64,000 nucleotides of DNA from Desulfobacteraceae bacterium (lineage in GTDB: Bacteria > Desulfobacterota > Desulfobacteria > Desulfobacterales > Desulfosalsimonadaceae). Below are positions 24,879 through 53,284 of the stretch, in pieces; position 1 is the stretch's first letter, and every line of letters starts with the position of its first letter. Location: the NCBI GenBank assembly GCA_011390465.1, contig JAABSH010000011.1:1-64000 (forward strand). Direction: 5' to 3'. The translations under genes were made by a program, and so were the position numbers. The notes beneath the pieces were generated by a model. It searched no databases, was not told the DNA's origin, and saw only the letters and a list, made by a program, of their open reading frames with translations.

Positions 24879-25997
24879 ATGTCACCGGAAAAAACAGATC
24901 ACAACCTCAATTTTGACCTGCCCCCGCAAACAAACATGCCGCCGGCCCGGTTTTCGGCCGGGTTTCCGGCCTGGGCAGGGCTTCTCCTGATACTGCTGTT
25001 TGTGACAGCGGTTGCCAACCTTGGGGTCTCCATGGGGTTTTTCAGCTTCAACCCCGCATCCGCGCCCCCGGAAACCCGCATCATTCCCGGCCCGGACAAA
25101 CAAAAAGCCCTGGCATTAAAACTTGAAGAACAGGGACTGTCCCGGCCGGCGGCCCGGGCGTGGGAACAGTATCTGGCCGTTGCAAATCCGGACGCGGAAG
25201 AAATTGCTCTTGTCTGGTACCGCATCGCCGGGCAGCTTCAGGACGCAGGAGATTATGAAAAAGCCCTGGCGGCTTATTACCGGTCTGAGAGTTTTGCCGC
25301 AAGAGAAGACATTGCCGCAGAAATTGCCCTCCGGGTGCAGGAATGCCTGGAGGCCCTGGGTAAATTTTCCGCCCTGCGGCATGAACTGGCGGATCGGGTC
25401 GGCCTTGATCCTGATGAAACCAAGGCTTCCGAAAACACCAAACCCAAGACCAATGAAAAAATACTGGCGGAGATCGGGATGCAGAAAATTACCCGCACGG
25501 ACCTTGACCACCACATTGAAGCCCTGATTGACGGGCAGATGGGTCTGACCAAAAGCGCCATGCCGGAACAGAACCGTCTGGCCCGAAAAAAAGACCTGTT
25601 CAGCCAGCTGGCGTCCCCGGAAAACCACCGCATGGTATTGGGCCAGCTGATTGCGGAAACCCTGCTGTACCGGAAAGCCCGCGAAACCGGCCTGGCGGAT
25701 GATCCAAAAATCCGGGAAATGCTGGATGCCAGAAAAAAAAGCCTGCTGGCCCAGGCATATGTGGAAAAAATCCTTTCAGAGCGCATCCACCTGACTGCCG
25801 CGGATTTGAAAACTTATTTTGAGGCCAATCCAGAAACTTTTAAAACCGAGGACAATCCTGAACCCGTGTTTGAAGATGTCAAAACAGCGGTGTACCAGAG
25901 CCTTTATGCCCAAAAAGCCGAAGAAATCCGTCAATCTCTGCTTTCAAGCCTGAAAGACGAATATGATGTGGTGATCCATCAAATTACCAATGAATAG
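24879..25997 (+). CDS. Membrane-anchored SurA-N-like chaperone lacking a parvulin domain
   Basis: 372 residues from the ATG at 24879 (ACGGGAGA upstream). One membrane helix lies at about 36-58 (GLLLILLFVTAVANLGVSMGF). Residues ~75-170 carry TPR-like pairs (ALALKLEEQGLSRPAARAWEQYL; DYEKALAAYYRSESF), given as landmarks. Residues ~190-370 resemble the SurA/PpiC N-terminal chaperone fold: ILAEIGMQKITRTDLDHHIE, LGQLIAETLLYRKARETGL, then TAADLKTYFEANPETFK and FEDVKTAVYQSL. In foldases a parvulin domain sits between those last two; here they are nearly adjacent, so it is likely a non-enzymatic chaperone. It overlaps the next gene by 8 bases. Confidence 0.75.
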   Translation: MSPEKTDHNLNFDLPPQTNMPPARFSAGFPAWAGLLLILLFVTAVANLGVSMGFFSFNPASAPPETRIIPGPDKQKALALKLEEQGLSRPAARAWEQYLAVANPDAEEIALVWYRIAGQLQDAGDYEKALAAYYRSESFAAREDIAAEIALRVQECLEALGKFSALRHELADRVGLDPDETKASENTKPKTNEKILAEIGMQKITRTDLDHHIEALIDGQMGLTKSAMPEQNRLARKKDLFSQLASPENHRMVLGQLIAETLLYRKARETGLADDPKIREMLDARKKSLLAQAYVEKILSERIHLTAADLKTYFEANPETFKTEDNPEPVFEDVKTAVYQSLYAQKAEEIRQSLLSSLKDEYDVVIHQITNE

Positions 25998-27171
25998 TTT
26001 TTGCACATACAAATGTTCAGCCAAACGCCGGACGTTGCCGGCCCTCATGGCCCTCCTTCTGGCCGGCGTCCTGACCCTGATGATGACGCTGGCAGTCGCG
26101 TGCAGCCCCGGCGAATCAACGGTTGACGCGCCGGTTGACGCGCCGGATGGTGTCTCGGACGACGTTTCAGACGACGCACCTCCGGAAGCGGGAAAACCCG
26201 GTGCGAACAAAACACCCGACGCCATACACAAAACCATCACCCGGGGGCCGGTAACCGTTGACCTGGATATTGACAACGCATCCCCCACCATCGCGGATCA
26301 GATAAATCTCTGCCTGAGTGTGGAATTTGATGAAAACTGGGATGTTACGCTGCCGGCCATGGGCGAGAAACTGGATCCGTTCGGTATTGTTTCTTATCAC
26401 ACCGACCCGCCGGAACTGATTGCGGACAGCCGTTCCCGCATCCGCCGCTGCTATGTGCTGGAGCCGTTTTTGTCCGGTGAGTACACCATCCGGCCCATGA
26501 CAATAAAATTTCAGGACACGGCCCGGCCGGATGATCCAGAGCATAAGCCAGAGCATAAGCCAGAGCATAAGCCAGAGCATAAGCCAGAGCATAAAATTGA
26601 AACCGAAGCCGTCACCCTTGAGGTGAAATCTCTGCTGCCGGAAAATTTTGAAGAATTAACCCTTCACGACATTCATCCCCCGGTGCCCCTGCCCCGGTCT
26701 TACACGCCCTGGATATGGGCGGGCGGCGGTTTGGCAGTGCTGCTGGCGGCGGGAATTGTCGGCGCCGGGATCTGGCAGAGAAAAAGGCGGCATGGCAGCG
26801 CAGGGGAACTCAGACAAATTCCGCCCCATGAACAGGCATTTGCGGAACTCCAGGCCCTGGTGGATGAAAACCTTGTTGAAAAAGGGGAAGTCAAAGCCTT
26901 TTATCAAAAAATATCAAATATTCTAAGGCATTATATTGAAAACCGGTTTCACCTGAAAGCACCGGAGCAGACCACTGAAGAATTTCTTGCCGTCATCCGG
27001 TCCGACAACAGTTTTGCCCGCCAGGAGAAGGCCTTGCTTCAGGCATTTCTCACCCATTGCGATCTTGTGAAATTTGCAAAATTTGCACCTGCAACAGAAG
27101 ATATTCAGAAAACGTTTGACGCCTGCAAGGCCTTTCTTCTTGAAACCCGGGAAAAGGAAACTGCGATCTGA
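25990..27171 (+). CDS. Exported, membrane-anchored Bat-operon protein (BatX/DUF4381-like)
   Basis: 393 residues. The N-terminus is a signal sequence (LPALMALLLAGVLTLMMTLAVACS); the Cys-containing end is only a weak lipobox (Ala at -3). An extracytoplasmic beta domain spans ~75-200, with a run of five PEHK repeats at about 183-202. A membrane helix is at ~240-262 (WIWAGGGLAVLLAAGIVGAGI). The cytoplasmic C-terminal domain has FYQKISNILRHYIENRFHLKAPEQTTEEFL, the pattern of the DUF4381-like protein usually placed before batA (described here by its position, ~305-340). It probably supports the MoxR/Bat complex. Its stop overlaps the next ATG (TGATG). Confidence 0.75.
   Translation: MNSFCTYKCSAKRRTLPALMALLLAGVLTLMMTLAVACSPGESTVDAPVDAPDGVSDDVSDDAPPEAGKPGANKTPDAIHKTITRGPVTVDLDIDNASPTIADQINLCLSVEFDENWDVTLPAMGEKLDPFGIVSYHTDPPELIADSRSRIRRCYVLEPFLSGEYTIRPMTIKFQDTARPDDPEHKPEHKPEHKPEHKPEHKIETEAVTLEVKSLLPENFEELTLHDIHPPVPLPRSYTPWIWAGGGLAVLLAAGIVGAGIWQRKRRHGSAGELRQIPPHEQAFAELQALVDENLVEKGEVKAFYQKISNILRHYIENRFHLKAPEQTTEEFLAVIRSDNSFARQEKALLQAFLTHCDLVKFAKFAPATEDIQKTFDACKAFLLETREKETAI
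26536..26595 (+). repeat. Five 12-bp in-frame repeats encoding PEHK
   Basis: CCAGAGCATAAG is repeated at 26536, 26548, 26560, 26572 and 26584 with only the last base of the last unit changed. The repeats are identical at the nucleotide level, so they are recent or kept homogeneous. Copy-number change by slippage would keep the frame. Confidence 0.95.
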
Positions 27172-28244
27172 TGATGCATTTTGAATCACCATGGGCCTTT
27201 CTGCTGCTGGTTCTGATCCCCCTGCTGCCGATGATTCAGCGGTATTGGCAGCAAAAAAAACGGCAACGGGGCGCCATCCGGTTTTCTTCCGTGAGCAACG
27301 CGGCAAATGCGGGCCGCTCCTGGCGGCAGCGGCTCTACAACCTGCCGATGGGGATCCGGATGCTGGCCCTGATCTGCCTGATTATTGCCCTGGCCCGGCC
27401 CCAGACCGGACGGGAGGAAGTGGTGGACATCAGCAAAGGGGTGGCCATTGAAATGGTCATTGACCGCTCCGGCAGCATGGCAGCGGAAATGGAAATCAAC
27501 GGCCGGCAGAAAACCCGGCTGGATGTGGTAAAAGACGTGTTTAAAAGCTTCGCCCTGGGCGACGGTAAAGACCTTTCCGGCCGGCCCAATGACCTTATCG
27601 GCATCATTGCGTTTGCCCGTTACGCGGACACCATCTGCCCGCTGACCCTGGCCCACGGGGCCCTTGAACCGTTTCTGGATACGGTGAAGCTCGTGCAGGT
27701 GCGCAGCGAAGACGGCACAGCCATCGGCGACGCCTTGGCCCTGGCCGCGGCCCGGCTGGAAAAAGCAGAAGACACCCTTGCCCGGCAGCAGCAGGACAGG
27801 AAAAAAACTTATACCATTAAAAGCAAAATCATTATTCTGCTGTCTGACGGAGAAAACAACGCCGGCAAACGAAAGCCCCTGGAAGCGGCAGAAATGGCAG
27901 CAAAATGGGGCATTCGGGTTTATACCATCGCCATTGGCGGAGACGCGTCCATGCAGTCCATCCGGACCCCGTTCGGGGTTTACAAGGTTCCAATGGGACA
28001 TGCCGTGGACACCACCACCATGCAGCGGATTGCCGAAGAAACCGGCGGATTTTTCCGGGAAGCCGGAGATGCCGCCTCTCTGGCCGCCATTTACCAGGAA
28101 ATTGATGCAATGGAAAAAAGCAATATTGAATCCGTTAAATACGTGGACTACAAGGAAGCCTTTCTGCCCTTTGCCATGCTCGGGCTGATACTCGTAGCCG
28201 CGGAAATCGTGCTTTCCAGCACTGTTTTTCGAAAACTGCCCTGA
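27171..28244 (+). CDS. batA: BatA, VWA-domain membrane protein
   Basis: 357 residues. Short N-terminal membrane segments (AFLLLVLIPLLPMI; GIRMLALICLIIALARP) precede a VWA domain with MIDAS motif EMVIDRSGSMAAEM (about 95), GIIAFARYADTICPLTLAHG (about 142-161) and IILLSDGENNAGKR (about 222). A C-terminal helix follows near 325. This is the BatA layout: two N-terminal helices, VWA outside the membrane, C-terminal anchor. The metal-ion adhesion motif is complete. Two tandem ATGs (27171 and 27174) are possible starts. Confidence 0.93.
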   Translation: MMHFESPWAFLLLVLIPLLPMIQRYWQQKKRQRGAIRFSSVSNAANAGRSWRQRLYNLPMGIRMLALICLIIALARPQTGREEVVDISKGVAIEMVIDRSGSMAAEMEINGRQKTRLDVVKDVFKSFALGDGKDLSGRPNDLIGIIAFARYADTICPLTLAHGALEPFLDTVKLVQVRSEDGTAIGDALALAAARLEKAEDTLARQQQDRKKTYTIKSKIIILLSDGENNAGKRKPLEAAEMAAKWGIRVYTIAIGGDASMQSIRTPFGVYKVPMGHAVDTTTMQRIAEETGGFFREAGDAASLAAIYQEIDAMEKSNIESVKYVDYKEAFLPFAMLGLILVAAEIVLSSTVFRKLP

Positions 28245-28249
28245 TCATT

Positions 28250-29263
28250 ATGATACTTCAAAACATTACCATACTGCATTTTCTGTGGCTCATCCCGTTG
28301 CTGGCGGGCATCTGTGCTTATGCGTGGCATCGCCGGAGAACCGGGCTGCAACGGTTTATCGACGCCGGTCTGCTGGACCGGATTCCGGTTTCCGTGAGCT
28401 ACGGACGGCGGTTCTGGAAATCTGTTATGGTACTTGGGGCTTTGATGTTTCTGATTCTTGCCATGGCCCGGCCCGCATGGAATCCCAAACCGGAAACCGT
28501 GGAGCGGAAAGGCCGGGATGTGGTCTTTTTGCTGGATGTGTCCCGAAGCATGCTGGCCGAAGACCTGTATCCCAACCGCCTGGCGCGGGCTAAACTGGCC
28601 ATCCTGGACTGCATTGACCGGCTCGAAGGGGATCGGGTGGGGCTGGTGGCCTTTGCCGGCACGGCCGCGGTAAAATGCCCCCTGACCCTGGATTATGGCT
28701 TTTTCCGCATGATGCTCAAGGATATTTCAACAGACAGCATTGCCCGGGGCGGCACCATGATCGGCGACGGCATCCGCAAAATCTTAACCGACGTGTTTGA
28801 CAATCAGGAAAAAGAATACAAGGATATTATTTTGATCACGGACGGCGAAGATCATGACAGTTTCCCCGTGGAAGCAGCCAAAGCAGCCGGTGAAAAAGGC
28901 ATCCGGATTATCGCCATCGGTCTGGGGGATGAAAACGAGGGCAAACGGATTCCCGTAACCACGGCGGCCGGTGAAAAAACCTTTCTCAAATACAATGGCC
29001 GGGAAATCTGGTCCCGGCTGGACGCGGACACCCTGCGCGAAATGGTAAACGCCACCCCCGGCGGCAAATATCTGAACGTGGCCACCGGCGCCATTGATCT
29101 GGGCAATGTTTATGCCCGGCTGATCGCCACGGCAGAAAAAAAACACCTGGAATCGGAAACCATCAAACGATATGAAGAAAAGTTCCAGATTTTCCTGGCA
29201 GCGGCATTTTTTCTCCTTGCTGTGGAATTTCTGGTCACTGAACGGAAAAAAATCAAAAAATGA
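28250..29263 (+). CDS. batB: BatB, VWA-domain membrane protein
   Basis: 337 residues, paralogous to the preceding gene. The MIDAS is VVFLLDVSRSMLAEDLYPNRL (landmark; Asp-x-Ser-x-Ser at about 89), then GLVAFAGTAAVKCPLTLDYGF and IILITDGEDHDSFP. Membrane helices are at about 7-20, 48-66 and near 310-328 (FLAAAFFLLAVEFLV). BatB usually carries a short TPR-like tail or is followed by a TPR protein, as here. Its stop overlaps the next start. Confidence 0.93.
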   Translation: MILQNITILHFLWLIPLLAGICAYAWHRRRTGLQRFIDAGLLDRIPVSVSYGRRFWKSVMVLGALMFLILAMARPAWNPKPETVERKGRDVVFLLDVSRSMLAEDLYPNRLARAKLAILDCIDRLEGDRVGLVAFAGTAAVKCPLTLDYGFFRMMLKDISTDSIARGGTMIGDGIRKILTDVFDNQEKEYKDIILITDGEDHDSFPVEAAKAAGEKGIRIIAIGLGDENEGKRIPVTTAAGEKTFLKYNGREIWSRLDADTLREMVNATPGGKYLNVATGAIDLGNVYARLIATAEKKHLESETIKRYEEKFQIFLAAAFFLLAVEFLVTERKKIKK

Positions 29264-30576
29264 CGGCTTCTCACGAAACAGTCCAAAAAATGACCGTTTT
29301 TTCACTGCGTTCCCGATCTGCTGCCAGGATTCTTGCCTGGCTTATGGTCTGTGTGCTGCACGTCTTTGCGGGTATTGGCACGGATTCCGGGTATGCCGGT
29401 GACACAGAAAGTCTGGTAAAAAAGGGCAACGCGCTGTTTGAAAACGGCGATTATGACGGGGCTCTCAGGGCCTATGAAGAAGCTGCGGTCTTTGATCCGG
29501 AATCCCCGCGGATTCTTTTTAACAAAGGCACTGCATTGTTTAAAAAACAGAATTTCACCGCGGCCCGGGAAGCGTTTCAAAAGGCGGCGTTAAAGAGCCG
29601 GGACACAAATCTGGAAGCCCGGGCCCGATATAATGCGGGCCTGTGTTTTTTCCAGGAAGGAGAACGCCAGAAAGACAGTGATCTTCAAAAGACCATTGAC
29701 GCCTATACCAGCAGCATTCAATTGTTTCAGGAAGCCTTGAAACTGAATCCCGAATTTACCCGGGCCGCGGAAAACCTGGAAATGGTCCGGCTGATGATGA
29801 AATCCGTGCTGGATGAAATCAAAAAACAGGAAGAAGCCGCGCAAAAACAGCAGGCGGCGGCCCGGAAAACAGCAGAAAAAATTAAAAATTTAATTGACCG
29901 GCAGCAGGCCCTGCTGGATACCAGCCGGGCCGGCATGGAAACCCCGCCCCCATCTGCTGCCGATCAAAGAGCGAAAAACCAGGAACTTGCGGACCAACAG
30001 AATCAATTAAAACAGGATACCACAACTTTTTCCGAAGAACTGGCAGCTTCCGCCGGAACCACCGCCAATCCGGCAGCGGGGAACGCCCCTGGCCCGGGCT
30101 CACCACCGGCAATACATCCGGCCAATCCCCATCTGGATGCTTCCGCAAATGCCCAGGACAAGGCCGTGGGAAAGCTCACGGACAATAATCTGCCGGAGGC
30201 CGCAAATCACCAGGAAACATCCCTTGACGCTTTGGAAAAAGCCCTTGAAGCCTTGAGCCAACAGCAAAGCCAGAATCAGGGCCAGAACCAGCAGGCCGAA
30301 AAACAGCAAACCGGAGAACAGCAAACTGCCCCTGAAAAACCAGACGATGCAGCAAACGACCCGGAAAACAACCCGGCAAATGAAACTGATAAAAATGCAG
30401 GGACCGAAGACAGAGAAAAAGATGAAGCAGCAGACAACAGCGACCCCTCAGATGCGGCCCGGGCCTTTGAGCTGACGGATGATCCGGAAAGCATCATCGA
30501 AGAAGAAAGAAAAAACAAACAACAGCGGATGCCCGTGTCCAGCGGCGCTTTTAAAGATGTGGACAAAAACTGGTAA
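29260..30576 (+). CDS. batC: BatC-like TPR protein
   Basis: 438 residues, starting at an ATG that overlaps the batB stop. A membrane or signal helix lies near 18-40 (ILAWLMVCVLHVFAGIG). TPR units follow at about 50-165 (GNALFENGDYDGALRAYEEA; GTALFKKQNFTAAREAFQKA; AIQLFQEALKLNPEFTRAAENL-like). The second half is low-complexity, rich in Gln, Asn, Glu and Pro, with a run QQQSQNQGQNQQAEKQQ near 330. It ends with an acidic, then basic tail. It is presumably the scaffold that links the Bat proteins. Confidence 0.85.
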   Translation: MTASHETVQKMTVFSLRSRSAARILAWLMVCVLHVFAGIGTDSGYAGDTESLVKKGNALFENGDYDGALRAYEEAAVFDPESPRILFNKGTALFKKQNFTAAREAFQKAALKSRDTNLEARARYNAGLCFFQEGERQKDSDLQKTIDAYTSSIQLFQEALKLNPEFTRAAENLEMVRLMMKSVLDEIKKQEEAAQKQQAAARKTAEKIKNLIDRQQALLDTSRAGMETPPPSAADQRAKNQELADQQNQLKQDTTTFSEELAASAGTTANPAAGNAPGPGSPPAIHPANPHLDASANAQDKAVGKLTDNNLPEAANHQETSLDALEKALEALSQQQSQNQGQNQQAEKQQTGEQQTAPEKPDDAANDPENNPANETDKNAGTEDREKDEAADNSDPSDAARAFELTDDPESIIEEERKNKQQRMPVSSGAFKDVDKNW

Positions 30577-30636
30577 AACAAACGCCCGTAAAAAAGCATC
30601 GCTCAAACAAACCCCGGTAAAAAACAGGACTGGCAG

Positions 30637-32553
30637 GTGAAACGTTTTCTGTCCATACATACCCTTTTGATTCTGTGCATAACCGGCTTGTGTATCGCCG
30701 GCTTATGTATCGCCGGGCCGGCGGCTCAGCCGGCTTCCGCCGCTGCCCTTCAGGCGGAAGCCGTGGTGGAGCAGACCACTGTATATCAGGGGGAACCGTT
30801 TATGCTGCGCATCCGGGTAAGCGGCAGCGACCAGGTTGAGCCGCCGGATTCCGGCATCCTTGAAAATATGGACGGCTTTTCCGTGACATATCAGGGCGGA
30901 TCCGGCAACAACAGCACTTCCATCACCATTGTAAACGGAAAAATGACCCGGAACATCAAACGGGGGTACGTGTTTTCATATGAGCTGATTCCTCAAAAAA
31001 CCGGCACCCTCACCATTCCGCCGATAGAAATCCGGGCGGACGCTCAAAGCGTGAAAACCCGGTCCGTCCGGATTCATGTGAGAGCGCCCGGGGAAACCGA
31101 TGATGTCAAACTCCGGGTTTTTTTGAGCAAAAATCACTGTTATACCGGCGAACCCGTTACCCTCACGGCCCGGCTCTATCTGCGAAAAGATGTGCGCACC
31201 GCTGTTTTTACCCTTCCGGCCCTGAACCGGACCGACTGGTTTTACGTTATTGATCCAAAGGCAGCGCAAAAACAAGGGAAAAAATACTACCGGATTCCCG
31301 TAAACAACGAAGAGGTCATCGCTCTGCAGGGCCAGGAAACCCTGGACGGGACACTGTATTCCACTGTCTCGTTTTCAAAAATTCTGATTCCCGGAAAACC
31401 CGGCGCATTTACGCTGGATCAGGCCACTGTGGCCTGCGAGGTGTTCACCGGATATCGTGAAAATCAGCGCCGGAATCCGTTCGGAGATGAATTTTTCTCT
31501 GATTTTTTCAATACCCGTCAGGGGGTTTATCAAAAAGTGGTGGCTCCGTCTCCAGCCGTGGACCTGACCGTTCGCGAACTGCCGGTTCAGGGCCGGCCGG
31601 ACAATTTTGCCGGCCACATTGGCCAATACGGGATTTCCGCCACCGCCAGCCCCCTTGAAGTCAGTGTGGGGGATCCCATCACCCTGACCATCACCCTGAG
31701 CGGGCCGTCCTATCTGGAACACGTCAATCTTCCGCCCCTGGAAAATCAGAAAAACCTGGCCCGGCAGTTTAAAATACCCGAAGAGCGGGCCACCGGGGAA
31801 ATCCAGAACCACAAAAAAATTTTTACCCAGACCATCCGCGCGCTAAGCGCGGATGTCACCCATATTCCCGCCATCCAGCTTCCCTATTTTGATACAGAAA
31901 ACAGCACCTATAAAACTGCCGAAACCCGGCCCATTCCCCTGACGGTCAAAGAAACCCGCGTTGTCACGGCAATGGATGCGGAAGGGCGGTCCCTGTCCGC
32001 GGCTCAGGGCAGAACCGTGGAGACCTGGGACCGGGGGATTGCCTATAATTACGAAGACGCCTCTGTGCTGGAAGATCAGCGCACCGGACTGCAGCTGATC
32101 CAGACCCCGGCATGGACAGGTGCCATTGCCGCGCCCCCGGTGCTTTACCTGATGGTGCTGGCAGTCTCTGCCGTGATCCGCAGAAAAAAGGCAGATCCCG
32201 GTGCCCTGATGGCCAGAAAAGCGTTTCGCCGGTTGTCAAAAACCCTTGGGGCCATTAAAAAAACAGAACCCGCAGCAGATGAAACCGACAGAATTTTAAA
32301 GGCCCTGTGCCAGTATCTCGGCGCCCGGCTGGGTCTGTCGTCTCTTGCCATTGTATACAGCGACGCGGCCCCTGCTCTGGCGGAAAAAGGGGCCTCATCC
32401 GAACTGCTGCATGATCTTGAAAAAATTTTCACGGCCTGCGAAGCCGGGCGCTATGCCGGTGCCCGGGATCGGTCTGCTTCCGGGGAACCCGTGGCGGAAC
32501 TTTCGGAAAAAACCTTGAAAACAGCGGCAAAAATCGAAAAATTATGCAAATGA
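30637..32553 (+). CDS. batD: BatD, exported beta-sandwich membrane protein
   Basis: 638 residues from a GTG (30637), with CAGGA upstream. The signal peptide ends near ASAAALQAEA and contains an imperfect 15-bp duplication (GLCIA twice). The exported region begins EAVVEQTTVYQGEPFMLRIRV-like and has DGFSVTYQGGSGNNSTSI, both typical of BatD, then further oxygen-tolerance-type beta domains. A membrane helix lies at about 492-508 (AAPPVLYLMVLAVSAVI), followed by a ~120-residue cytoplasmic helical tail. It overlaps batE by 10 bases. Confidence 0.9.
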   Translation: MKRFLSIHTLLILCITGLCIAGLCIAGPAAQPASAAALQAEAVVEQTTVYQGEPFMLRIRVSGSDQVEPPDSGILENMDGFSVTYQGGSGNNSTSITIVNGKMTRNIKRGYVFSYELIPQKTGTLTIPPIEIRADAQSVKTRSVRIHVRAPGETDDVKLRVFLSKNHCYTGEPVTLTARLYLRKDVRTAVFTLPALNRTDWFYVIDPKAAQKQGKKYYRIPVNNEEVIALQGQETLDGTLYSTVSFSKILIPGKPGAFTLDQATVACEVFTGYRENQRRNPFGDEFFSDFFNTRQGVYQKVVAPSPAVDLTVRELPVQGRPDNFAGHIGQYGISATASPLEVSVGDPITLTITLSGPSYLEHVNLPPLENQKNLARQFKIPEERATGEIQNHKKIFTQTIRALSADVTHIPAIQLPYFDTENSTYKTAETRPIPLTVKETRVVTAMDAEGRSLSAAQGRTVETWDRGIAYNYEDASVLEDQRTGLQLIQTPAWTGAIAAPPVLYLMVLAVSAVIRRKKADPGALMARKAFRRLSKTLGAIKKTEPAADETDRILKALCQYLGARLGLSSLAIVYSDAAPALAEKGASSELLHDLEKIFTACEAGRYAGARDRSASGEPVAELSEKTLKTAAKIEKLCK

Positions 32554-33425
32554 TATATCAAATAACCTTTATCCTGATGATGATTTTATGCCCTGTTTTG
32601 GGCGGGACACCTCCTGCTGATGCAGCATCGGCAGCCGCCGACACAACACCAGACGCAGCCGCCGACACAGCCGGACACCTGACAGAGACAGAGATCTCGC
32701 GTTTGTTTCACGAGGCCAATGACCTGTTTGCAAAAGCCAACCAGGCCGCGGCAGCCGATCCGGAAAAAGCCATGACCCTGTACCGGAAATCCCTTTTACG
32801 ATACCGAAAAATCGCGGAACAGGGAAACATTGAAAACGGCAGGCTCTACTATAATATCGCCAACCTCTATTTTAAAACCCGGGATATCGGCCGGGCCATC
32901 CTGAACTACCGAAAAGCAGAAATCTACCTGGGAAACGATATCAATCTGGAGAAAAATCTGGCCTTTGCCCGGCAGATGCGCAAAGATGACATCCGCGTTA
33001 AACAGGAAACAAAAATCCTGAAAACTGTGTTTTTCTGGCACTATGATCTGTCTTCGAAAACCCGGCTGTTTCTTTTTGCCGGATCATTTGCCCTGTTCTG
33101 GGGATTTGCGGGAATCCGCATTTTTATCAAACGACCGGCGGTTAAAGGCGCAGCCGTGGTCTGGGCCGTTCTTGCGGTGCTGTTTGGTACTTCTTTAATC
33201 GTGGAATACACGGTCCGGAAAAACACGGTGCCCGGGGTGGTGGTAAGCGAGAAAGTGGTGGCCAGAAAAGGAAACAGCCGCTCCTATGAACCCAGCTTTA
33301 AAGATCCACTGCACGCGGGCACGGAGTTTATTGTGCTGGAACATCGGGGAAACTGGATTCAGGTGCGGCTGCCCGACGACCGGACCTGCTGGCTGCCGGC
33401 GGCAGATGTTGAACTGGTGGGCTGA
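32544..33425 (+). CDS. batE: BatE, TPR and SH3-like membrane protein
   Basis: 293 residues. A signal peptide is followed by a short Ala/Asp/Thr-rich spacer. TPRs lie at about 80-150 (YYNIANLYFKTRDIGRAILNY and RKAEIYLGNDINLEKNLAFA as landmarks). Two membrane helices are at ~175-190 and ~205-222. A C-terminal SH3-like domain (VVARKGNSRSYEPSFKDPL, AGTEFIVLEHRGNWIQVRLPD, then WLPAADVELV) closes the protein. This layout is diagnostic for BatE, the last member of the operon. A 7-bp inverted pair CTGAAAC/GTTTCAG spans the stop region towards the convergent gene but has no U-run. Confidence 0.9.
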   Translation: MQMIYQITFILMMILCPVLGGTPPADAASAAADTTPDAAADTAGHLTETEISRLFHEANDLFAKANQAAAADPEKAMTLYRKSLLRYRKIAEQGNIENGRLYYNIANLYFKTRDIGRAILNYRKAEIYLGNDINLEKNLAFARQMRKDDIRVKQETKILKTVFFWHYDLSSKTRLFLFAGSFALFWGFAGIRIFIKRPAVKGAAVVWAVLAVLFGTSLIVEYTVRKNTVPGVVVSEKVVARKGNSRSYEPSFKDPLHAGTEFIVLEHRGNWIQVRLPDDRTCWLPAADVELVG

Positions 33426-33450: not shown

Positions 33451-34560
33451 TCAGATATACAGCTCACAGTGCCGGGCCGCGGCCTTATCCAGCATGGCCG
33501 GCAGACCGCCCTGTTCAGACGGCAAAAATCCCAGAGACTTCTGCCACACTTCATCATCTTCCATGCAGAAATACAGGGTAACGCCAGGGGCCAGCCGGCG
33601 GATCATTTCTACAATGCGCCGGTACATGCGGATGCGCAGGGGTTTGAAATACCGCATTTTGCCGTCAATGCCCCGGACAAACTCGCCGTAAACAATTTTA
33701 GACTGTCCGAACCGCTTCTCAACCACTGGTTTTAAATCCGGCATAAACCGGAAAGACCCCAGGCTGATCCAGACAATATTGTCCGGATCGATTCGGGAAA
33801 ACAGCAGCGCAATCACTTCCTGATACTCTTTTTCCCACCCCGGATAAACGATCAGGGGATCAAAATGAAATGCCAGAGGATATCCTGCCTTCTGGCATTT
33901 TTCCGCGGCTGCCAGCCGGGCGTGTATGCCGGCCGTGCGCCTTTCTTCCGCCGCCACGACCTGAAGCGTGTTCAATGACCAGGCCATGATGGTTTTGCGC
34001 TGGTGGCGCAGATCCAGAAGAGATGCAATGTTGACGGTTTTGGTTTTGAGCTCGAGAACCGCCCGGTGCTGGCCGGCAAAAGCGGAAATCAGCATTTCGG
34101 AAAGGGGATAAACCTCTTCCCAGATCAGGCTGTCCGTGTATTCGCCAGTGCCGATGCGGGTGAGCCGGGGCTGGGCAAACCACTCATCCAGGGCAGCTGT
34201 CATGTCGGTGTGATTTACAAAAAACTGCAACACCGGCGGGTGAAAATAAGACTGAAGAATACAGTAGGCGCAGTCCATGGTACAGAAGGTGCCCACATGC
34301 AGAATCATATAATTGCAGCAGGTATAATATTCCGTGCCCGGGCACTGCCGGATGAACCGGCCCCGGTTCCGGGTGAGAAACAGTACTTTCTTCCCCTGGT
34401 CCACCGGAGATTGGGCCGCCGTAATCCGCCGGTACATCTCATCCGGCGCATCAATAATATGACAGGGGATATCACGGGAACCCTTCAGATTCGTGCAAAT
34501 CCGCTGTGTGGCCGGAAAATCCTGAATCGAAGCATCAATATATAATTCATCAATCTTCAT
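33451..34560 (-). CDS. Spore photoproduct lyase-like radical SAM protein
   Basis: 369 residues. The radical SAM cluster motif is C93-x3-C97-x2-C100 (GTFCTMDCAYCILQSYF), the spacing and following ILQ of the SPL family. ELKTKTVNI (about 173) and WSLNT (about 194) are barrel strands conserved in SPL-type enzymes, and YPGWEKEYQEVI follows near 238. True SPL reverts spore photoproduct in UV-damaged DNA, but this organism is not expected to sporulate, so the substrate may be another DNA lesion or something else. It lies 15 bases downstream of a ParB-like gene on the same strand, an arrangement that suggests a joint function. Confidence 0.85.
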   Translation of the reverse strand: MKIDELYIDASIQDFPATQRICTNLKGSRDIPCHIIDAPDEMYRRITAAQSPVDQGKKVLFLTRNRGRFIRQCPGTEYYTCCNYMILHVGTFCTMDCAYCILQSYFHPPVLQFFVNHTDMTAALDEWFAQPRLTRIGTGEYTDSLIWEEVYPLSEMLISAFAGQHRAVLELKTKTVNIASLLDLRHQRKTIMAWSLNTLQVVAAEERRTAGIHARLAAAEKCQKAGYPLAFHFDPLIVYPGWEKEYQEVIALLFSRIDPDNIVWISLGSFRFMPDLKPVVEKRFGQSKIVYGEFVRGIDGKMRYFKPLRIRMYRRIVEMIRRLAPGVTLYFCMEDDEVWQKSLGFLPSEQGGLPAMLDKAAARHCELYI

Positions 34561-34575
34561 GTCGTCTATCGACCT

Positions 34576-35628
34576 TCATTTGACCGGCAGATCTTCAAAA
34601 TCTTTTTCCAGGATGCGGATAAAATCCGGATGATCCCGGAGGCGTTCCAGCGCCCGGACAAGGACGGTGAAGTCTTCTCTGGTTGAAAAATCCCCCTGAA
34701 ACGAAAACCTGTTCCCTTCAAAATCCCGGGGCGGTATCAGCCGCAGGGCTTCGGGAAGCTTGAGCCGGGCCGCATGGGCGGCATATTGTTTTTCAAACCA
34801 GACCATTTCCGGATACCGCATCCGCCGCAAAAGGGTTTTCAGTTCCCGGATTTTCCAGTTCCGGTCATGCTCTGTGTCCTCGAGCACCGCACGGATCTCT
34901 TCTGCGGACAGCACCGCCTTGAGGGTCACGTCGTTAAGCCGGGCAAGGGCTTTTACCATCCGGAGAATCTCTTTTTGATGATTCAGGGTGGGATTAAGGG
35001 CGTCAAAAATTTCCAGCAGCATCAGGGCATCGGGTTTTTCAAGGGCCCCGAGGGCCAGACCGATGGTCAGGGAAATACGGTCCAGGGCCACCTTTTCCTG
35101 AATGGCCCCATCCGCCTGATTCAGTTCCAGAAGTTTTTCAAGAAGCCCCGGATTCAGGGCCAGACCGGCGGCGCCGGCGCAGCGGCAAAGCGCCCGGGAA
35201 TCTTTGAAGTATTCAGATAATTTGGCGGCGGCAACCGCCTGTTCCATAAGGTTCAGCTTCCGGTGAAAGGCGTTGTCGCTGATGGCGATCAAAAGCAGAT
35301 CCGGATCAGGCGCGGCGCTGTCACAAATCCGGGCATGAATCCTTTCCCATCCCAGCGCCCGGCAGGCAGCGATGCGGCGAAAACCGCACACCACCCGGTA
35401 ACGGCTGTTCGGTGAATCCCCGGGGGAATTTTCCGGTAAACGCTCGGAAGCATCTTTGGGGCGGCGCCAGAGCACGGGCGGTGACAGCAGGCCCGCCTGT
35501 TGGATGGATGCAGATAGAGCGGTCCCGGAAAGCCCGGTGATTTCCGCCGCCTCCGCAGTTGTGATTTTATAAAACGTATCCCGGGTGTCAATATCACGGA
35601 TCGGCACCGTATCAAAAAAAAGGCGCAT
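34576..35628 (-). CDS. ParB-like nuclease/CTPase-fold protein paired with the SPL-like enzyme
   Basis: 350 residues from the ATG at 35628 (a TTG lies one codon before; neither has a clear ribosome site). Residues ~10-105 match a ParB N-terminal domain: a short SLxAGLLSPPVL-type segment (ALSASIQQAGLLSPPVLW), then box II as VVCGFRRIAACRALGW, where Phe replaces the usual Glu of GERR. SDNAFHRKLNLMEQAVAAAKL resembles ParB's ENxxRxxLxxxEEA helix. The C-terminal 150 residues are helical, with no canonical dimerisation domain. It lacks a ParA neighbour, so chromosome partition is unlikely. An adaptor or DNA-binding role for the SPL-like enzyme is inferred only from adjacency. Confidence 0.78.
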   Translation of the reverse strand: MRLFFDTVPIRDIDTRDTFYKITTAEAAEITGLSGTALSASIQQAGLLSPPVLWRRPKDASERLPENSPGDSPNSRYRVVCGFRRIAACRALGWERIHARICDSAAPDPDLLLIAISDNAFHRKLNLMEQAVAAAKLSEYFKDSRALCRCAGAAGLALNPGLLEKLLELNQADGAIQEKVALDRISLTIGLALGALEKPDALMLLEIFDALNPTLNHQKEILRMVKALARLNDVTLKAVLSAEEIRAVLEDTEHDRNWKIRELKTLLRRMRYPEMVWFEKQYAAHAARLKLPEALRLIPPRDFEGNRFSFQGDFSTREDFTVLVRALERLRDHPDFIRILEKDFEDLPVK

Positions 35629-35675: not shown

Positions 35676-36560
35676 TTATTGGGTCAGGGCCGTGAGGGCT
35701 TCCATGTATTTCCGGCGGGTATTGGCGATCACTTCGCCGGGAAGCGACGGCGCGGGCGGGGTTTTATTCCACTGGATGGAGGTAAGGTAATCTCTTAAGT
35801 ACTGTTTATCATAACTGTTCTGGGGACCGCCGGGCTGGTAGGTCGCTTTGGGCCAGAACCGGGAGGAATCCGGGGTCAGCACTTCATCAATCAGAATCAG
35901 TTGATTTCCCACAGTTCCGAATTCAAATTTGGTGTCTGCAATGATAATGCCTTTTTCCGCAGCCAGGGCCGCGCCTTTTTTGTAAATGGCAAGGCTTAGC
36001 TCCCGAACGGTTTCTGCCAGTTCCGCGCCGATGAGATCAACCGCCGCGTCAAAGCTGATGTTAATGTCGTGGGCTCCCTGCTCTTCTTTGGTGGAAGGCG
36101 TGAAAATGGGTTCTGCGAGCTGCTCTGATTCTTTAAGTCCGGCAGGCAGGGAAATGCCGCATACCGTTCTGTTTTCCTGATAGGATTTCCAGCCGGATCC
36201 GGAAATATAGCCCCGGACAACACATTCAATGGGCAGCGGAGCGGCTTTTTTCACCAGCATGCTGCGTCCGGCCAGATCCGCTGCATAGGGCCGGCAGGCC
36301 GCGGGAAATGCAGCCACATCACTGGCAATAAGATGGTTGGGCACAATGTCCGCCATCACATTGAACCAGAACAACGATATTTTTGTCAGAATTTCACCTT
36401 TTCCCGGAATCGGATCCGGCATGACCACATCATAGGCGGAAATCCGGTCCGTGGCGATCAACAGAATATTGTCATCCACTTCATAAATATCTCTAACTTT
36501 TCCCCGTTTGATCAGGTTCAGCCCGGGAAAATCCGTTTCCAAAATTGCCGCTGGTGTCAT
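35676..36560 (-). CDS. purC: Phosphoribosylaminoimidazole-succinocarboxamide synthase
   Basis: 294 residues, the longer bacterial/yeast-like form. It begins [34 protein letters not shown] (the first strands and SAICAR motif; residues 16-49 in position), with [18 protein letters not shown] (about 112), [17 protein letters not shown] (about 151) and TKFEFG and [14 protein letters not shown] (about 225). It converts CAIR plus aspartate and ATP to SAICAR in purine synthesis. AAGGAAG precedes the ATG. Downstream, 35632-35675 is a short TTGGTT-rich spacer. Other pur genes are not in the window. Confidence 0.96.
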
Positions 36561-41432: not shown

Positions 41433-43337
41433 TCATTCCGCCGGCCCGTTCAAGCCGGTCCGGTTCAAATCAGTCCGGTTCAGACAGGCCTGAACCGCTG
41501 CCGCAACTTTCCGGTTCATTCCCGGGGCCGCCGCAAGTTCATCAATTGTGGCGGCCCTGATTTTCTGCATGCTGGAAAATTTTTTGAGGAGCGCGGCTTT
41601 TCGCTGTTTTCCGATGCCGGGAATGCTGTCCAGAGCAGAGTGCAGCGCGGCTTTGGACCGCTTTTTCCGGTGAAAGGAAATAGCAGACCGGTGGGCTTCA
41701 TCCCGGATCTGCTGCAGAAAATACAGCAGGGAAATCTGCTTCCCGAAATTCACCGGATTCATCCGGCCGGGTTTAAAAATTTTATCATGGGGCTCGTCTT
41801 TGGCCGGGTCTTTCTTGGCAATGCCGATGACATCAAAGGCCCCGGTCAATTCTAAAGATTCCAGCACCTTGCAGGCGATGTTGAGCTGTCCCTTGCCCCC
41901 GTCCACCATGAGCAGATCCGGCTGCGGGCCGCCTTGTTCCTGTTTTTTAAACCGCCGCGTGAGCACTTCTTTCATGGCAGCATAATCATCCTGCTGATCC
42001 ACACTTTTAAGAGTGTATTTGCGATAACTGTTCCGGTCCGGCGTTCCGTTGGTAAACACCACCATGGCCGCCACCAGATGAGTGCCCATGATGCCGGAAT
42101 TGTCAAAGCATTCAATGCGGAGCGGCAGCCGCTCCAGCCGCAGCAGTGCCTTCAGGCGCGTCAGCAGCTCGGTCCGGGCCGCGGTATCCTCCATTTTCTT
42201 CTGCAGCCGCGATTCCGCGTTTTCCCGGGCCATCCGGATCAGGCGGGTTTTGTTTCCCCGCCGGGGGGTCTGAACATGCACGGCCCCGCCCCGGATGCCG
42301 GAGAGCCACTCATTGTAGACACCGGCATCCGCGAGAAATTCCGGCACCAGGATTTCCGGTGGAATATAACCGGTTTCCGGATAATACTGTTTTAAAAATC
42401 CTTGGATGATTTCAATATCAGATGACATTTCATCTTCAAGTCCGTACTCGCGAACCGTTTGAAGATATCCTTTGCGGATCAGCAGCACCACCACCGCTGC
42501 CAGAGCCCCGGAACGGGCCACACCGATAACATCCCGGTCCACAAAATCCGTTGAAACCGCCATCTGCCGCTCCACGGTTTTTTCCAAAGCCCATATTTTA
42601 TCCCGCAGCCTGGCAGCCCGCTCAAATGCCTGTTCCCGGGCCGCAGCCGCCATGTCGTCTTTGAGCTGGCCCACCAGCTCATGGATCTGGCCGTTTAGAA
42701 ACATGCGCACTTCACCTACAATGGCATGGTATTCGGACGGGTCCACCGGATAACAGCAGGGTCCCAGACACAATCCCATCTGATAATTCAAACAGGGCCG
42801 GGACCGGGGTTTCACCGGCCCGGGGCCGCATTTGCGAAGCCGGAACGTTTTCTTGATCAGCTTGAGGGTCTGGTGCACGGCGCCGGGGGAAGAAAACGGA
42901 CCAAAATACACGGCATGATCTTTTTTGGGCTTTCGCACAACCTGAAGGCAGGGAAAATCGGATTTTATGTCAATACGGATAAACGGGTACCGCTTGTCAT
43001 CTTTTAAAATGACATTATAACGGGGCTTATAGCGTTTGATCAGGGTGGATTCGAGCAGCAGGGCTTCTTTTTCCGACCCCGTGATAATGGTTTCAAAATC
43101 CGCAATTTTTTTGACCAGCACCCCGGTTTTAATATCCGGCTGGGTGGTGCGGGCAAAATAGGAAGAGAGCCGTTTTTTTAAACTGGCCGCCTTTCCCACA
43201 TAAATTACCCGGCCCTGTTGATCTTTCATCAGATACACCCCGGGACCGGCAGACACCAGACGCAGCCGGCCGGAAAAATTCCCGGCCCTGGGGCCGGATT
43301 TTTTTTCAGTCATCGGGTCAGGCATGTGGCCTTTCAT
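41433..43337 (-). CDS. uvrC: Excinuclease ABC subunit C
   Basis: 634 residues. The GIY-YIG nuclease is at the start (PGVYLMKDQQGRVIYVGKAASLKKRL; given as position 32-57). CLNYQMGLCLGPC and a UVR segment (AAREQAFERAARLRDKIWALEK) near 225 bind UvrB. The C-terminal RNase H-like endonuclease has IECFDNSGIMGTHLVAAMVVF and LLMVDGGKGQL. A helix-hairpin-helix pair ends the chain (ALDSIPGIGKQRKAALLKKF). It cuts both sides of a lesion in nucleotide excision repair. The first ATG at 43337 overlaps the uvrB stop (ATGA). Confidence 0.97.
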   Translation of the reverse strand: MKGHMPDPMTEKKSGPRAGNFSGRLRLVSAGPGVYLMKDQQGRVIYVGKAASLKKRLSSYFARTTQPDIKTGVLVKKIADFETIITGSEKEALLLESTLIKRYKPRYNVILKDDKRYPFIRIDIKSDFPCLQVVRKPKKDHAVYFGPFSSPGAVHQTLKLIKKTFRLRKCGPGPVKPRSRPCLNYQMGLCLGPCCYPVDPSEYHAIVGEVRMFLNGQIHELVGQLKDDMAAAAREQAFERAARLRDKIWALEKTVERQMAVSTDFVDRDVIGVARSGALAAVVVLLIRKGYLQTVREYGLEDEMSSDIEIIQGFLKQYYPETGYIPPEILVPEFLADAGVYNEWLSGIRGGAVHVQTPRRGNKTRLIRMARENAESRLQKKMEDTAARTELLTRLKALLRLERLPLRIECFDNSGIMGTHLVAAMVVFTNGTPDRNSYRKYTLKSVDQQDDYAAMKEVLTRRFKKQEQGGPQPDLLMVDGGKGQLNIACKVLESLELTGAFDVIGIAKKDPAKDEPHDKIFKPGRMNPVNFGKQISLLYFLQQIRDEAHRSAISFHRKKRSKAALHSALDSIPGIGKQRKAALLKKFSSMQKIRAATIDELAAAPGMNRKVAAAVQACLNRTDLNRTGLNGPAE

Positions 43338-45346
43338 CAGCCTGCGGCTTCAAAGTCAAAAAGCATTAATTTTTTGAGCGTATTGATGCGGTCCCGGTAT
43401 TCCGCGGCCTTTTCAAACTCCAGTTCCCGGGCCGCGGCCTGCATTTTCGTTTCTAATGAAGCAATCCGGGCCGCGATACTTTCATGGTCATGATACGGCA
43501 ACTGATTTTCTTCCACCTGTAACTGGCCTTCGTCAGACCGGGGGTAAAACCGGCTCATGAGCGCGGAAGAAATGTCTTTGACAATGGTCTCCGGCGTGAT
43601 GTTGTTTTCCTGGTTATACTGTTCCTGAATCTTCCGGCGGCGGCCGGTTTCATCAATGGCTGTCTGCATGGACGGCGTAATCACATCGCCATACATCAGG
43701 ACTTTGCCGTTGACGTTCCGGGCGGCCCGGCCGCAGGTCTGAATCAGGGACCGGGCAGAGCGCAGAAACCCTTCCTTGTCCGCATCCAGAATGGCCACCA
43801 TGCTGACTTCCGGAATGTCCAGCCCTTCCCGCAGCAGATTAATGCCCACCAGCACATCAAATTCCCCCTTGCGAAGATCCTGGATGATTTCAAGACGTTC
43901 CAGGGTTTTAATGTCTGAATGCAGATACCGCACGGCCATGCCCAGATCAGAATAATAATCCGTTAAATCTTCGGCCATGCGCTTGGTCAGAGTGGTCACC
44001 AGCACCCGCTCGTTTTTTTCAATGCGCCGCTGAATTTCTTCGAACAGATCATCCACCTGATTTTTGGCATCCCGGATTTCAATAACCGGGTCCACAAGCC
44101 CGGTGGGCCGGACAATCTGCTCCACCACATGTCCTTTACTGGCGTCCATTTCATAATCCGCGGGCGTGGCAGACACATAAATCACCTGGGCGGTGCGGGC
44201 CTGAAATTCGTCAAATCTCAGGGGCCGGTTGTCCATGGCCGACGGCAGCCGGAACCCGTAATTCACGAGGGTTTCCTTGCGGGACCGGTCGCCGTTGTAC
44301 ATTCCCCGCAACTGGGGCACGGCAATATGGCTTTCATCAATAAACAGCAGAAACTCATCCGGAAAATAATCGAAGAGCGTGGGCGGCGGTTCCCCGGCCC
44401 GGCGGCCGGTGAGGTGGCGGGAGTAATTTTCAATGCCATTGCAGTATCCGAGCTCCTGGATCATCTCCAGATCAAACTGGGTGCGCTCTTCAATGCGCTG
44501 GGCCTCAATCAGTTTGTTCTCTCTGGTAAAATAATCCACCCGGTCCCGCATTTCCGCGTACACATCCCCTATCACCCGTTCCCGGGTGCGTTCCCGGGTA
44601 ACGTAATGACTGGCCGGATACAGAAACAGATGGTTCAGATGTTTTTTCCGGGTGCCGGTGAGAGGATCGATTTCACTGAGAGCGTCAATCATGTCTCCGA
44701 AAAAATCAATGCGTATCGCTGTGTTTTCTTCGTAAGCCGGAAAAACTTCCACCCGGTCCCCCCGGACCCGGAATGTGCCCCGGTAAAAATCCATGTCATT
44801 GCGCTCATACTGAATTTCCACCAGCCGGGACAGGAGCTGGTCCCGCGAAAACGCCATGTCCGTTTCCAGTTCCAGGCGCATGGCAATATAATCTTCGGGC
44901 GCGCCCAGGCCGTAGATGCAGGAAACACTGGCCACCACCAGCACATCCGGCCGGGACAGCACCGAACGGGTGGCGGAATGCCGCATTTTGTCAATCATTT
45001 CATTGATGGCGGAGTCTTTCTGGATATAGGTATCGGACACCGGAAGGTAGGCTTCGGGCTGGTAGTAATCATAATAGCTGACAAAATATTCTACCGCGTT
45101 TTCCGGAAACAGGCCCTTGAATTCATTATAGAGCTGGGCCGCCAGGGTTTTGTTGGGGGCCAGCACCAGGGCGGGTTTCTGAATTTTTTCAATGATGTTG
45201 GCCATGGTAAAGGTTTTGCCGGAACCGGTAACCCCCAGCATGACCTGATGGTTTCTGCCTTTCACAAGCCCCTGGCTGAGGGCCGCAATGGCCCGGGGCT
45301 GGTCCCCCTTGGGCGTCATGGATGAGACGATTTGAAAACGGGACAT
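43337..45346 (-). CDS. uvrB: Excinuclease ABC subunit B
   Basis: 669 residues, normal length. Walker A is [14 protein letters not shown] (about 39-52), with the beta-hairpin region [18 protein letters not shown] near 92, and helicase motifs [29 protein letters not shown] and [13 protein letters not shown]-terminal UVR domain ([27 protein letters not shown]) binds UvrC. It loads on damage with UvrA, which is not in the window. It lies 8 bases after cysS and overlaps uvrC, so cysS-uvrB-uvrC form one transcript. Confidence 0.97.
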
Positions 45347-53283: not shown

Positions 53284-53284
53284 C

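Follow-up and report, generated by a model that had tools for sequence, protein, structure and literature searches.

Spore photoproduct lyase (SPL), an enzyme tied to spores, is the one known to undo a DNA lesion through radical S-adenosylmethionine (SAM) chemistry. In a 64,000-nucleotide stretch of contig JAABSH010000011.1 (here referred to as the window), from a Desulfobacteraceae bacterium whose genome assembly comprises 3.9 Mb in 119 contigs, we analyzed a gene for an SPL-like radical SAM enzyme and, 15 bp upstream of it, a gene for a ParB-like protein. The two genes show near-complete co-occurrence in related genomes, and this points to a previously undescribed system of two parts whose probable target is DNA or nucleotides. 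The reading that we prefer, and hold tentatively, is that the enzyme and the ParB-like protein form one functional unit, in which the ParB-like protein would be a nucleoside triphosphate (NTP)-binding adaptor that brings the enzyme to nucleic acid for the repair or modification of a base other than the spore photoproduct. The initial annotation had placed an SPL-like and a ParB-like open reading frame (ORF) at these positions with this spacing, and both were recovered there.

The co-occurrence of the two proteins was assessed with profiles run on 118 genomes of the order Desulfobacterales, with the enzyme counted when it scored above 300 bits and an E value of 1.4e-38 or better required of the partner. 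The enzyme exceeded 300 bits in 109 genomes, and 105 genomes encoded both proteins. Four had the enzyme only (G007, G029, G054, and G077), one had the partner only (G101), and eight had neither (G016, G018, G023, G031, G069, G093, G097, and G112). Fisher's test on this table gives P = 6e-9, which is not a true probability because the genomes are related. The eight genomes without either gene fall into four families, three of which (f17, f19, and f32) have other members with both, and five of the eight encode a weaker SPL-like protein (144 to 197 bits). Two of these five proteins were aligned, the paralogs L188 (in G016) and L189 (in G031); positions 101, 140, and 234 are occupied in them by Ser, Gln, and His, respectively, and no ParB-like partner is present in the stretch examined; paralogs of this type perhaps replace the pair.

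Across the phylum Desulfobacterota, the enzyme was found in 85 of 148 genomes, and all 85 also encode the partner or its C-terminal domain, in one case (G253) only as a weak match fused to the enzyme. This count includes two fragments (G212 and G231) and excludes four further genomes with weak paralogs only. The first partner profile was sufficient for 70 of the 85, and the other 15 were recognized with iterated profiles, either beside the enzyme or, for G164 and G216, in a genome-wide search. The partner occurs without the enzyme in G145, G214, and G252, where in each case it runs off the end of a short contig. When the iterated partner profile was run genome-wide on 28 enzyme-lacking genomes (20 of the 60 phylum genomes without both, plus the eight from the order), any matches were confined to the ordinary ParB region and ended by position 216 of its 318 positions; the remaining 40 of the 60 were judged by the first profile at 1e-22. 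Both genes are absent from G128, a single contig estimated at 99% completeness, and present in its congeners G164, G216, and G259; the same contrast is seen between G123, without either gene, and its congener G159, with the two. The pair also co-occurs in genomes in which a long distance separates the two genes on a single contig (e.g., G061, G043, and G057), and the partner is present away from the enzyme in the single-contig genomes G061, G057, G142, G177, G203, and G226. The persistence of co-occurrence in unlinked genomes argues against mere hitchhiking. The co-occurrence that the initial annotation had asked to be counted is therefore close to complete, at 105 of 118 genomes in the order and 85 of 85 in the phylum.

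A scan of genome contigs with patterns of the window's own protein kept 80 of 110 relatives; the titles listed were Desulfobacterota-like, Deltaproteobacteria, or unresolved Proteobacteria. Gene order was examined at 80 order loci (81 with the window). The partner gene lies upstream of the enzyme gene on the same strand at 45 of the 80 loci. Among 44 order loci that were clustered, it overlaps the enzyme start by 4 to 26 bp in 20, lies within 100 bp in 5, and lies further away in 19, with starts taken as aligned by tblastn. At 80 phylum loci, from 80 of the 85 enzyme-encoding genomes, the partner is found on the same strand within 400 bp upstream in 53, counting an apparent fusion in G253.

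The enzyme has the SPL fold and passes the SPL family model PF20903, and it falls short of both NCBIfam SPL equivalog models. It scores 93.6 bits against PF20903 (gathering cutoff, 27), 112.3 bits against TIGR04070, the spore photoproduct lyase equivalog (cutoff, 400), and 58.6 bits against TIGR03886, the SPL family protein model (cutoff, 437.55); its similarity to the TIGR03886 family is distant, with a lower score than that for TIGR04070. A structural model of the enzyme (predicted local distance difference test [pLDDT] score, 86.5) matched six SPL entries with Z scores of 33.4 to 33.7 over 321 to 324 residues, the best being Geobacillus SPL (Z, 33.7; 323 residues; 2.5 Å), whereas the next family in the comparison reached a Z score of 14.0. 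The SPL structures cover residues 1 to 333 or 334 of the model, and none extends beyond 334. The cysteine spacing claimed in the initial annotation is present as CX3CX2C (C93, C97, and C100), and these three residues, together with Y99, D143, E170, K174, C332, M333, and E334, are invariant in all 57 enzymes aligned. Y99 corresponds to Y97 of Bacillus subtilis SPL, the SAM-side Tyr. With SplB (TIGR04070, PF20903), the enzyme shares the fold, the cysteine motif, the SAM-side Tyr, and the aligned Lys174 and Ser195/Asn197; it differs in an invariant C332-M-E, a C-terminal extension, a constant partner, and host genomes without genes for small acid-soluble spore proteins (SASPs). The median net charge of the enzymes is +1, compared with +2 for Bacillus SplB, a value with no bearing either way on DNA binding.

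At the hydrogen donor site, the enzyme departs from B. subtilis SPL, in which C141 is the hydrogen donor and Y99 takes part in a radical relay (PMC3742179). At the position of C141, the enzymes have Glu (E140) in 55 of 57 sequences, Gln in two (the paralogs L188 and L189), and Cys in none. At position 101, equivalent to Tyr99, they have Ile (36), Val (10), Phe (8), Ser (2), or Ala (1), and never Tyr. The SPL of Clostridium acetobutylicum reportedly uses C74, which faces the pocket from the opposite side (PMC5368176). PDB entry 4rh0 is a C140A/S76C mutant of Geobacillus SPL, and from this entry we infer that C74 of the clostridial enzyme corresponds to the Geobacillus S76 site. C73 of the present enzyme was placed by hhalign on S77 of Bacillus SplB (S76 in Geobacillus SPL) and by MAFFT one residue away, so that in 55 of 57 enzymes a candidate Cys appears at the alternative donor site or directly beside it. 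C82 is likewise present in 55 of 57, the exceptions in both cases being the f59 pair L130 and L131, and C81 is present in 50 of 57; speculatively, C73, C81, C82, and C332 might constitute an auxiliary-cluster set. Of the catalytic residues, whose complete lack the initial annotation would have taken as a refutation, the radical SAM cysteines, Y99, and a possible alternative donor are retained, and the Bacillus donor pair is gone.

These features bear on whether the enzyme could be a classical spore photoproduct lyase kept for ultraviolet lesions in non-spore-formers. The fold, the radical SAM cysteines, and the candidate alternative Cys donor would all fit such an enzyme, whereas its score far below the TIGR04070 cutoff and the replacement of both Bacillus donor residues do not. 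In addition, no SASP gene was detected in any of 58 genomes of the order (that of the window and 57 others), with a positive B. subtilis control; the search did not extend to Spo0A or other sporulation genes. The description of the host as an apparent non-spore-former is borne out to that extent. The spore photoproduct is described as a lesion of endospore DNA (PMC3742179), and the absence of SASP genes makes it an unlikely substrate. We consider retention of classical SPL activity highly improbable.

The ParB-like protein combines weak sequence scores with clear structural matches. The window copy scores 14.4 bits against PF02195 (ParB_N; cutoff, 26.3) and 25.2 bits against TIGR04285 (Noc; cutoff, 315), and it matches Noc among PDB sequences at 1.5e-6. 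Two of four full-length relatives pass PF02195 (L116 and L121) and two fail (L106 and L143); a separate protein above the ParB_N cutoff is encoded on another contig of the host genome. A model built from a 45-row alignment of the window and related loci (mean pLDDT, 92.9) matched PadC (Z, 12.9; 98 residues), KorB 8qa9 (Z, 12.8; 205 residues), ParB 6sdk (Z, 12.7; 191 residues), Caulobacter ParB 7bm8 (Z, 12.3; 99 residues; 2.4 Å), and Noc 7nfu (Z, 11.6; 197 residues). The root mean square deviations of 5.7 to 14.9 Å in the KorB, 6sdk, and 7nfu matches are put down to domain movement. Residues 110 to 229 matched the Noc DNA-binding domain in its DNA complex (6y93; Z, 7.8; 114 residues; 2.2 Å), and further matches were to sulfiredoxin (Z, 9.1) and to free serine kinase and SbnI (Z, ~7). 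The ParB_N fold and a helix-turn-helix (HTH) region are thus present in the model, with ParB-fold matches reaching residue ~231 and the region beyond 269 barely covered. SpoT, NinB, and other hits (Z, ~5) that touch the C-terminal domain were weak and are not trusted.

Box II reads GFRR, as the initial annotation had noted. In ParB proteins, the Glu of the GERR motif serves hydrolysis. This Glu (position 83) occurs in none of 54 full-length partners, whereas G82 and R85 of the GxxR P motif occur in all 54; N119, R123, and E129 are found in 41, 46, and 52 of the 54, respectively. ParB-fold proteins require the Arg of GxxR in order to bind NTP (PMC12704722), and with GxxR kept throughout, the altered box need not mean a dead protein. 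Compared with ParB, Noc, and KorB CTPase-fold proteins, the partner shares the fold, the HTH region, and GxxR; it lacks the GERR Glu, falls below the Pfam cutoff in its window copy, and has its own C-terminal domain and a radical SAM enzyme as its pair. The neighbors of the ParB-like gene in the window are purC (PF01259) and the SPL-like gene, in agreement with the lack of ParA stated in the initial annotation; this comparison was limited to the window's neighbors, with no ParA model run and no search for parA in relatives.

Several lineages carry beside the enzyme a protein corresponding to the C-terminal half of the partner only (profile positions 148 to 167 through 311 to 321), namely, f92 (G151, G184, G209, and G233), f111 (G220 and G242), and G168. 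These proteins comprise 168 to 175 amino acids (aa) in f92 and 178 aa in G242; long open frames make the start positions in G168 and G220 less certain, and G190 and G206 were left out because the gene runs into a contig end. In G253, a single 504-aa ORF contains the enzyme preceded by a short stretch that resembles the C-terminal domain and has the RYP motif of this domain; the match of this stretch is weak, at 18 to 19 bits. P273 of the domain is conserved in 58 of 58 sequences. Since three lineages keep the C-terminal domain alone next to the enzyme, it is this domain that constantly accompanies the enzyme, whereas the ParB module is an extra that some lineages either lost or never acquired. 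The C-terminal domain offers a clean handle for binding tests. The pairing claimed in the initial annotation therefore stands as far as the two genes making one unit is concerned, and the ParB fold proves dispensable to it. The same observations bear on a reading in which the ParB-like protein is a CTP- or ATP-dependent operon regulator like KorB that makes no contact with the enzyme. KorB is among the best structural matches, and the two genes often overlap or adjoin, as would suit a regulator. Co-occurrence in unlinked genomes, lineages with the C-terminal domain and no ParB_N or HTH, and the apparent fusion in G253 speak against it, and we judge this reading improbable.

In the mechanism that we tentatively propose, a [4Fe-4S] cluster on C93, C97, and C100 would cleave SAM, and the resulting 5'-deoxyadenosyl radical would abstract a hydrogen from the bound substrate. 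Alignment with SPL suggests that E140, D143, H232, D234, and E334 line the substrate pocket; C73 may return a hydrogen. The ParB-like protein would be a dedicated partner whose C-terminal domain docks on the enzyme. Where present, its ParB/HTH module would bind nucleotide and DNA and either bring the enzyme to DNA or gate it; hydrolysis of the ParB kind is unlikely in a protein lacking the Glu. The likeliest use would be to repair or modify a base in nucleic acid, with the spore photoproduct excepted; a nucleic acid target is preferred on the ground that DNA is the setting in which both folds are best known. More speculatively, an NTP-switched ParB-like clamp might move along DNA with the radical SAM enzyme as its cargo and so undo or introduce an undescribed base change, as part of a core DNA maintenance system widespread in one phylum; this we regard as unlikely. 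In that case, the partner would to our knowledge be the first ParB-fold protein to work with a radical SAM enzyme. A sister enzyme of SPL with a near-constant ParB-fold partner implies either that the SPL fold has a second DNA or nucleotide substrate or that the ParB switch is put to a new use.

Several observations weigh against this proposal. At 35 of the 80 order loci, no partner is seen in the stretch examined, in some for lack of flanking sequence. The enzyme stands without the partner in four order genomes; two of these enzymes are at contig ends (G007 and G077), and a third (L133 in G054) is beside a run of Ns. In L133, the enzyme is part of a 924-residue frame joined to an unrelated stretch, which we take to be oxidoreductase-like, and the 100-N gap between the two parts suggests an assembly effect. 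Conversely, G101 keeps the ParB-like gene after a purC-like gene and has a gene other than the enzyme next; it is a real exception unless the enzyme sits in a gap of this genome, which is 91% complete. Because at least three lineages lack the ParB/HTH module, tethering to DNA by this module is not essential. Several of the conserved residues presumed to line the pocket are acidic, which is not what a site binding DNA phosphate would suggest, and the MAFFT alignment leaves C73 one residue from the alternative donor site. Finally, no other repair gene is a constant neighbor among the clustered neighbors.

In an alternative reading, the pair acts on a small molecule, with the ParB-like fold serving as an NTP sensor or kinase-like domain and the enzyme rearranging or cleaving a nucleotide, sugar, or cofactor precursor. 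The gene purC is present at 39 of the 45 order loci that show the partner (window included), and it lies directly upstream of the partner in 8 of 20 loci where the partner is away from the enzyme (partner ORF called in 19). In loci of distant families (L235, L236, and L240 to L245), purC remains next to the ParB-like gene even though the enzyme gene is now elsewhere. A cytidylate kinase-like gene (PF13189; e.g., positions 275 to 895 of L075) is found at 14 of the 81 order loci; at 12 of these it stands immediately upstream of the enzyme gene, and its presence is striking beside a CTPase-fold partner. Together, this gene and purC suggest a nucleotide link; because the kinase fits such a link under either a nucleic acid or a small-molecule reading, our weighing of the two is unchanged. 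A family 2 glycosyltransferase (GT2) gene, which forms a clean ortholog group, is upstream at 27 of 80 phylum loci (L101 to L105, L116, L117, L121, and others). The acidic conserved residues, the loss of the Bacillus donor pair, the alignment of the ParB-like model with free serine kinase and SbnI, and the lineages without HTH are also consistent with a small-molecule substrate. On the other hand, the enzyme finds its best structural match in SPL, an enzyme known to act on DNA; in addition, an HTH region like that of Noc is present in the ParB-like protein, and none of these neighbors is present at all loci. We consider a small-molecule substrate somewhat unlikely. Many radical SAM enzymes modify RNA. 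Modification of tRNA or rRNA by the pair would accord with this and with the presence of RlmN in the structural matches of the enzyme, at the usual superfamily level (Z, ~13); no ribosome or tRNA gene is a constant neighbor among the clustered protein neighbors, a comparison that did not extend to RNA genes, and this alternative seems to us quite improbable.

None of these neighbors qualified as a further part of the system. The cytidylate kinase-like gene is too patchy to be counted, as are a short-chain dehydrogenase gene (7 of 40 loci, downstream in 6) and a TetR-like regulator gene (at 17 of the 81 order loci, 5 of them with this gene immediately upstream of the enzyme). For GT2, the phylum genomes divide into 78 with both it and the enzyme, 7 with the enzyme only, 4 with GT2 only, and 59 with neither, a distribution that matches the enzyme's; many genomes were scored on 17 first-look candidates only, and some of the 7 may be misses. 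GT2 is kept in five of the eight order genomes that lost both genes of the pair, and no ortholog was found in the genome of the window, where all 33 candidates were scored (best, 86.7 bits). We take it to be an old neighbor and not a required part. In five other loci, the GT2 gene follows a LytB/IspH-like gene, which in the one locus scanned (L215) is fused to a UbiA-like part.

A defense or mobile origin of the pair was rejected. PADLOC returned no match for either window protein, no viral contig encoding the enzyme was found with the patterns scanned, and the C-terminal domain of the window partner matched no plasmid or phage record at 1e-5. The partner relative L116 gave weak PADLOC matches at 2.3e-4 (a type II methyltransferase model) and 0.0055. 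The enzyme matched 11 plasmid records at 23 to 29% identity, and those with annotation are SPL-family proteins.

We found no description of the enzyme and ParB-like pair in the literature; subscription papers lay mostly outside the search, so this is weak evidence of novelty. The accessible part of PMC10853773 describes no such pair. A 2025 survey of ParB-fold proteins used Pfam cutoffs that the window protein fails, and its main text contains neither "radical SAM" nor "photoproduct." An SPL homolog has been noted in vent Epsilonproteobacteria (PMC2628731). A parallel by description is found in PMC3765255, in which SplB-like photolyases stand beside ImuB-C domains proposed to guide repair proteins to damaged DNA. 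Those systems likewise place an SplB-like enzyme beside a small helper domain; they differ in the helper domain itself, and the word ParB is absent from that text.

Positions of the gene pair, its upstream neighbor, and the sequence features discussed, in window coordinates
Feature	Position	Strand	Remark
SPL-like radical SAM enzyme, 369 aa	33451..34560	-	PF20903, 1.5e-26; best model match, Geobacillus SPL
ParB-like partner, 350 aa from ATG 35628	34576..35628	-	
purC (SAICAR synthase), upstream neighbor of the ParB-like gene	35676..36560	-	PF01259, 1.2e-77; outside the claimed mechanism
CX3CX2C motif (C93, C97, C100) and Y99	34261..34284	-	Kept in 57/57 sequences
C73, candidate hydrogen donor	34342..34344	-	55/57; hhalign to S77 of Bacillus SplB
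GTGE (137-140), E140 at the site of Bacillus donor Cys141	34141..34152	-	
CMEDDE (332-337), start of the C-terminal stretch without counterpart in SPL structures	33550..33567	-	
ParB_N fold and HTH region (residues 1-231)	34936..35628	-	KorB 8qa9 and Noc 6y93 matches
GFRR (82-85), box II/P motif GxxR	35374..35385	-	
Box III DNxxxR (118-123)	35260..35277	-	
C-terminal partner domain (residues 232-350)	34579..34935	-	N-terminal border approximate

Elsewhere in the window, uvrC and uvrB lie side by side on the same strand at positions 41433 to 45346, ~7 kb from the pair; they are not among the clustered neighbors of other loci. A run of genes at positions 25990 to 33425 converges on the SPL-like gene; the two of them that were scanned have VWA/BatA and BatD domains, and the run is apparently an operon for Bat aerotolerance proteins. 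On the minus strand at positions 50512 to 55090 are two neighboring Hsp70-type genes, one of which encodes a DUF3731 domain.

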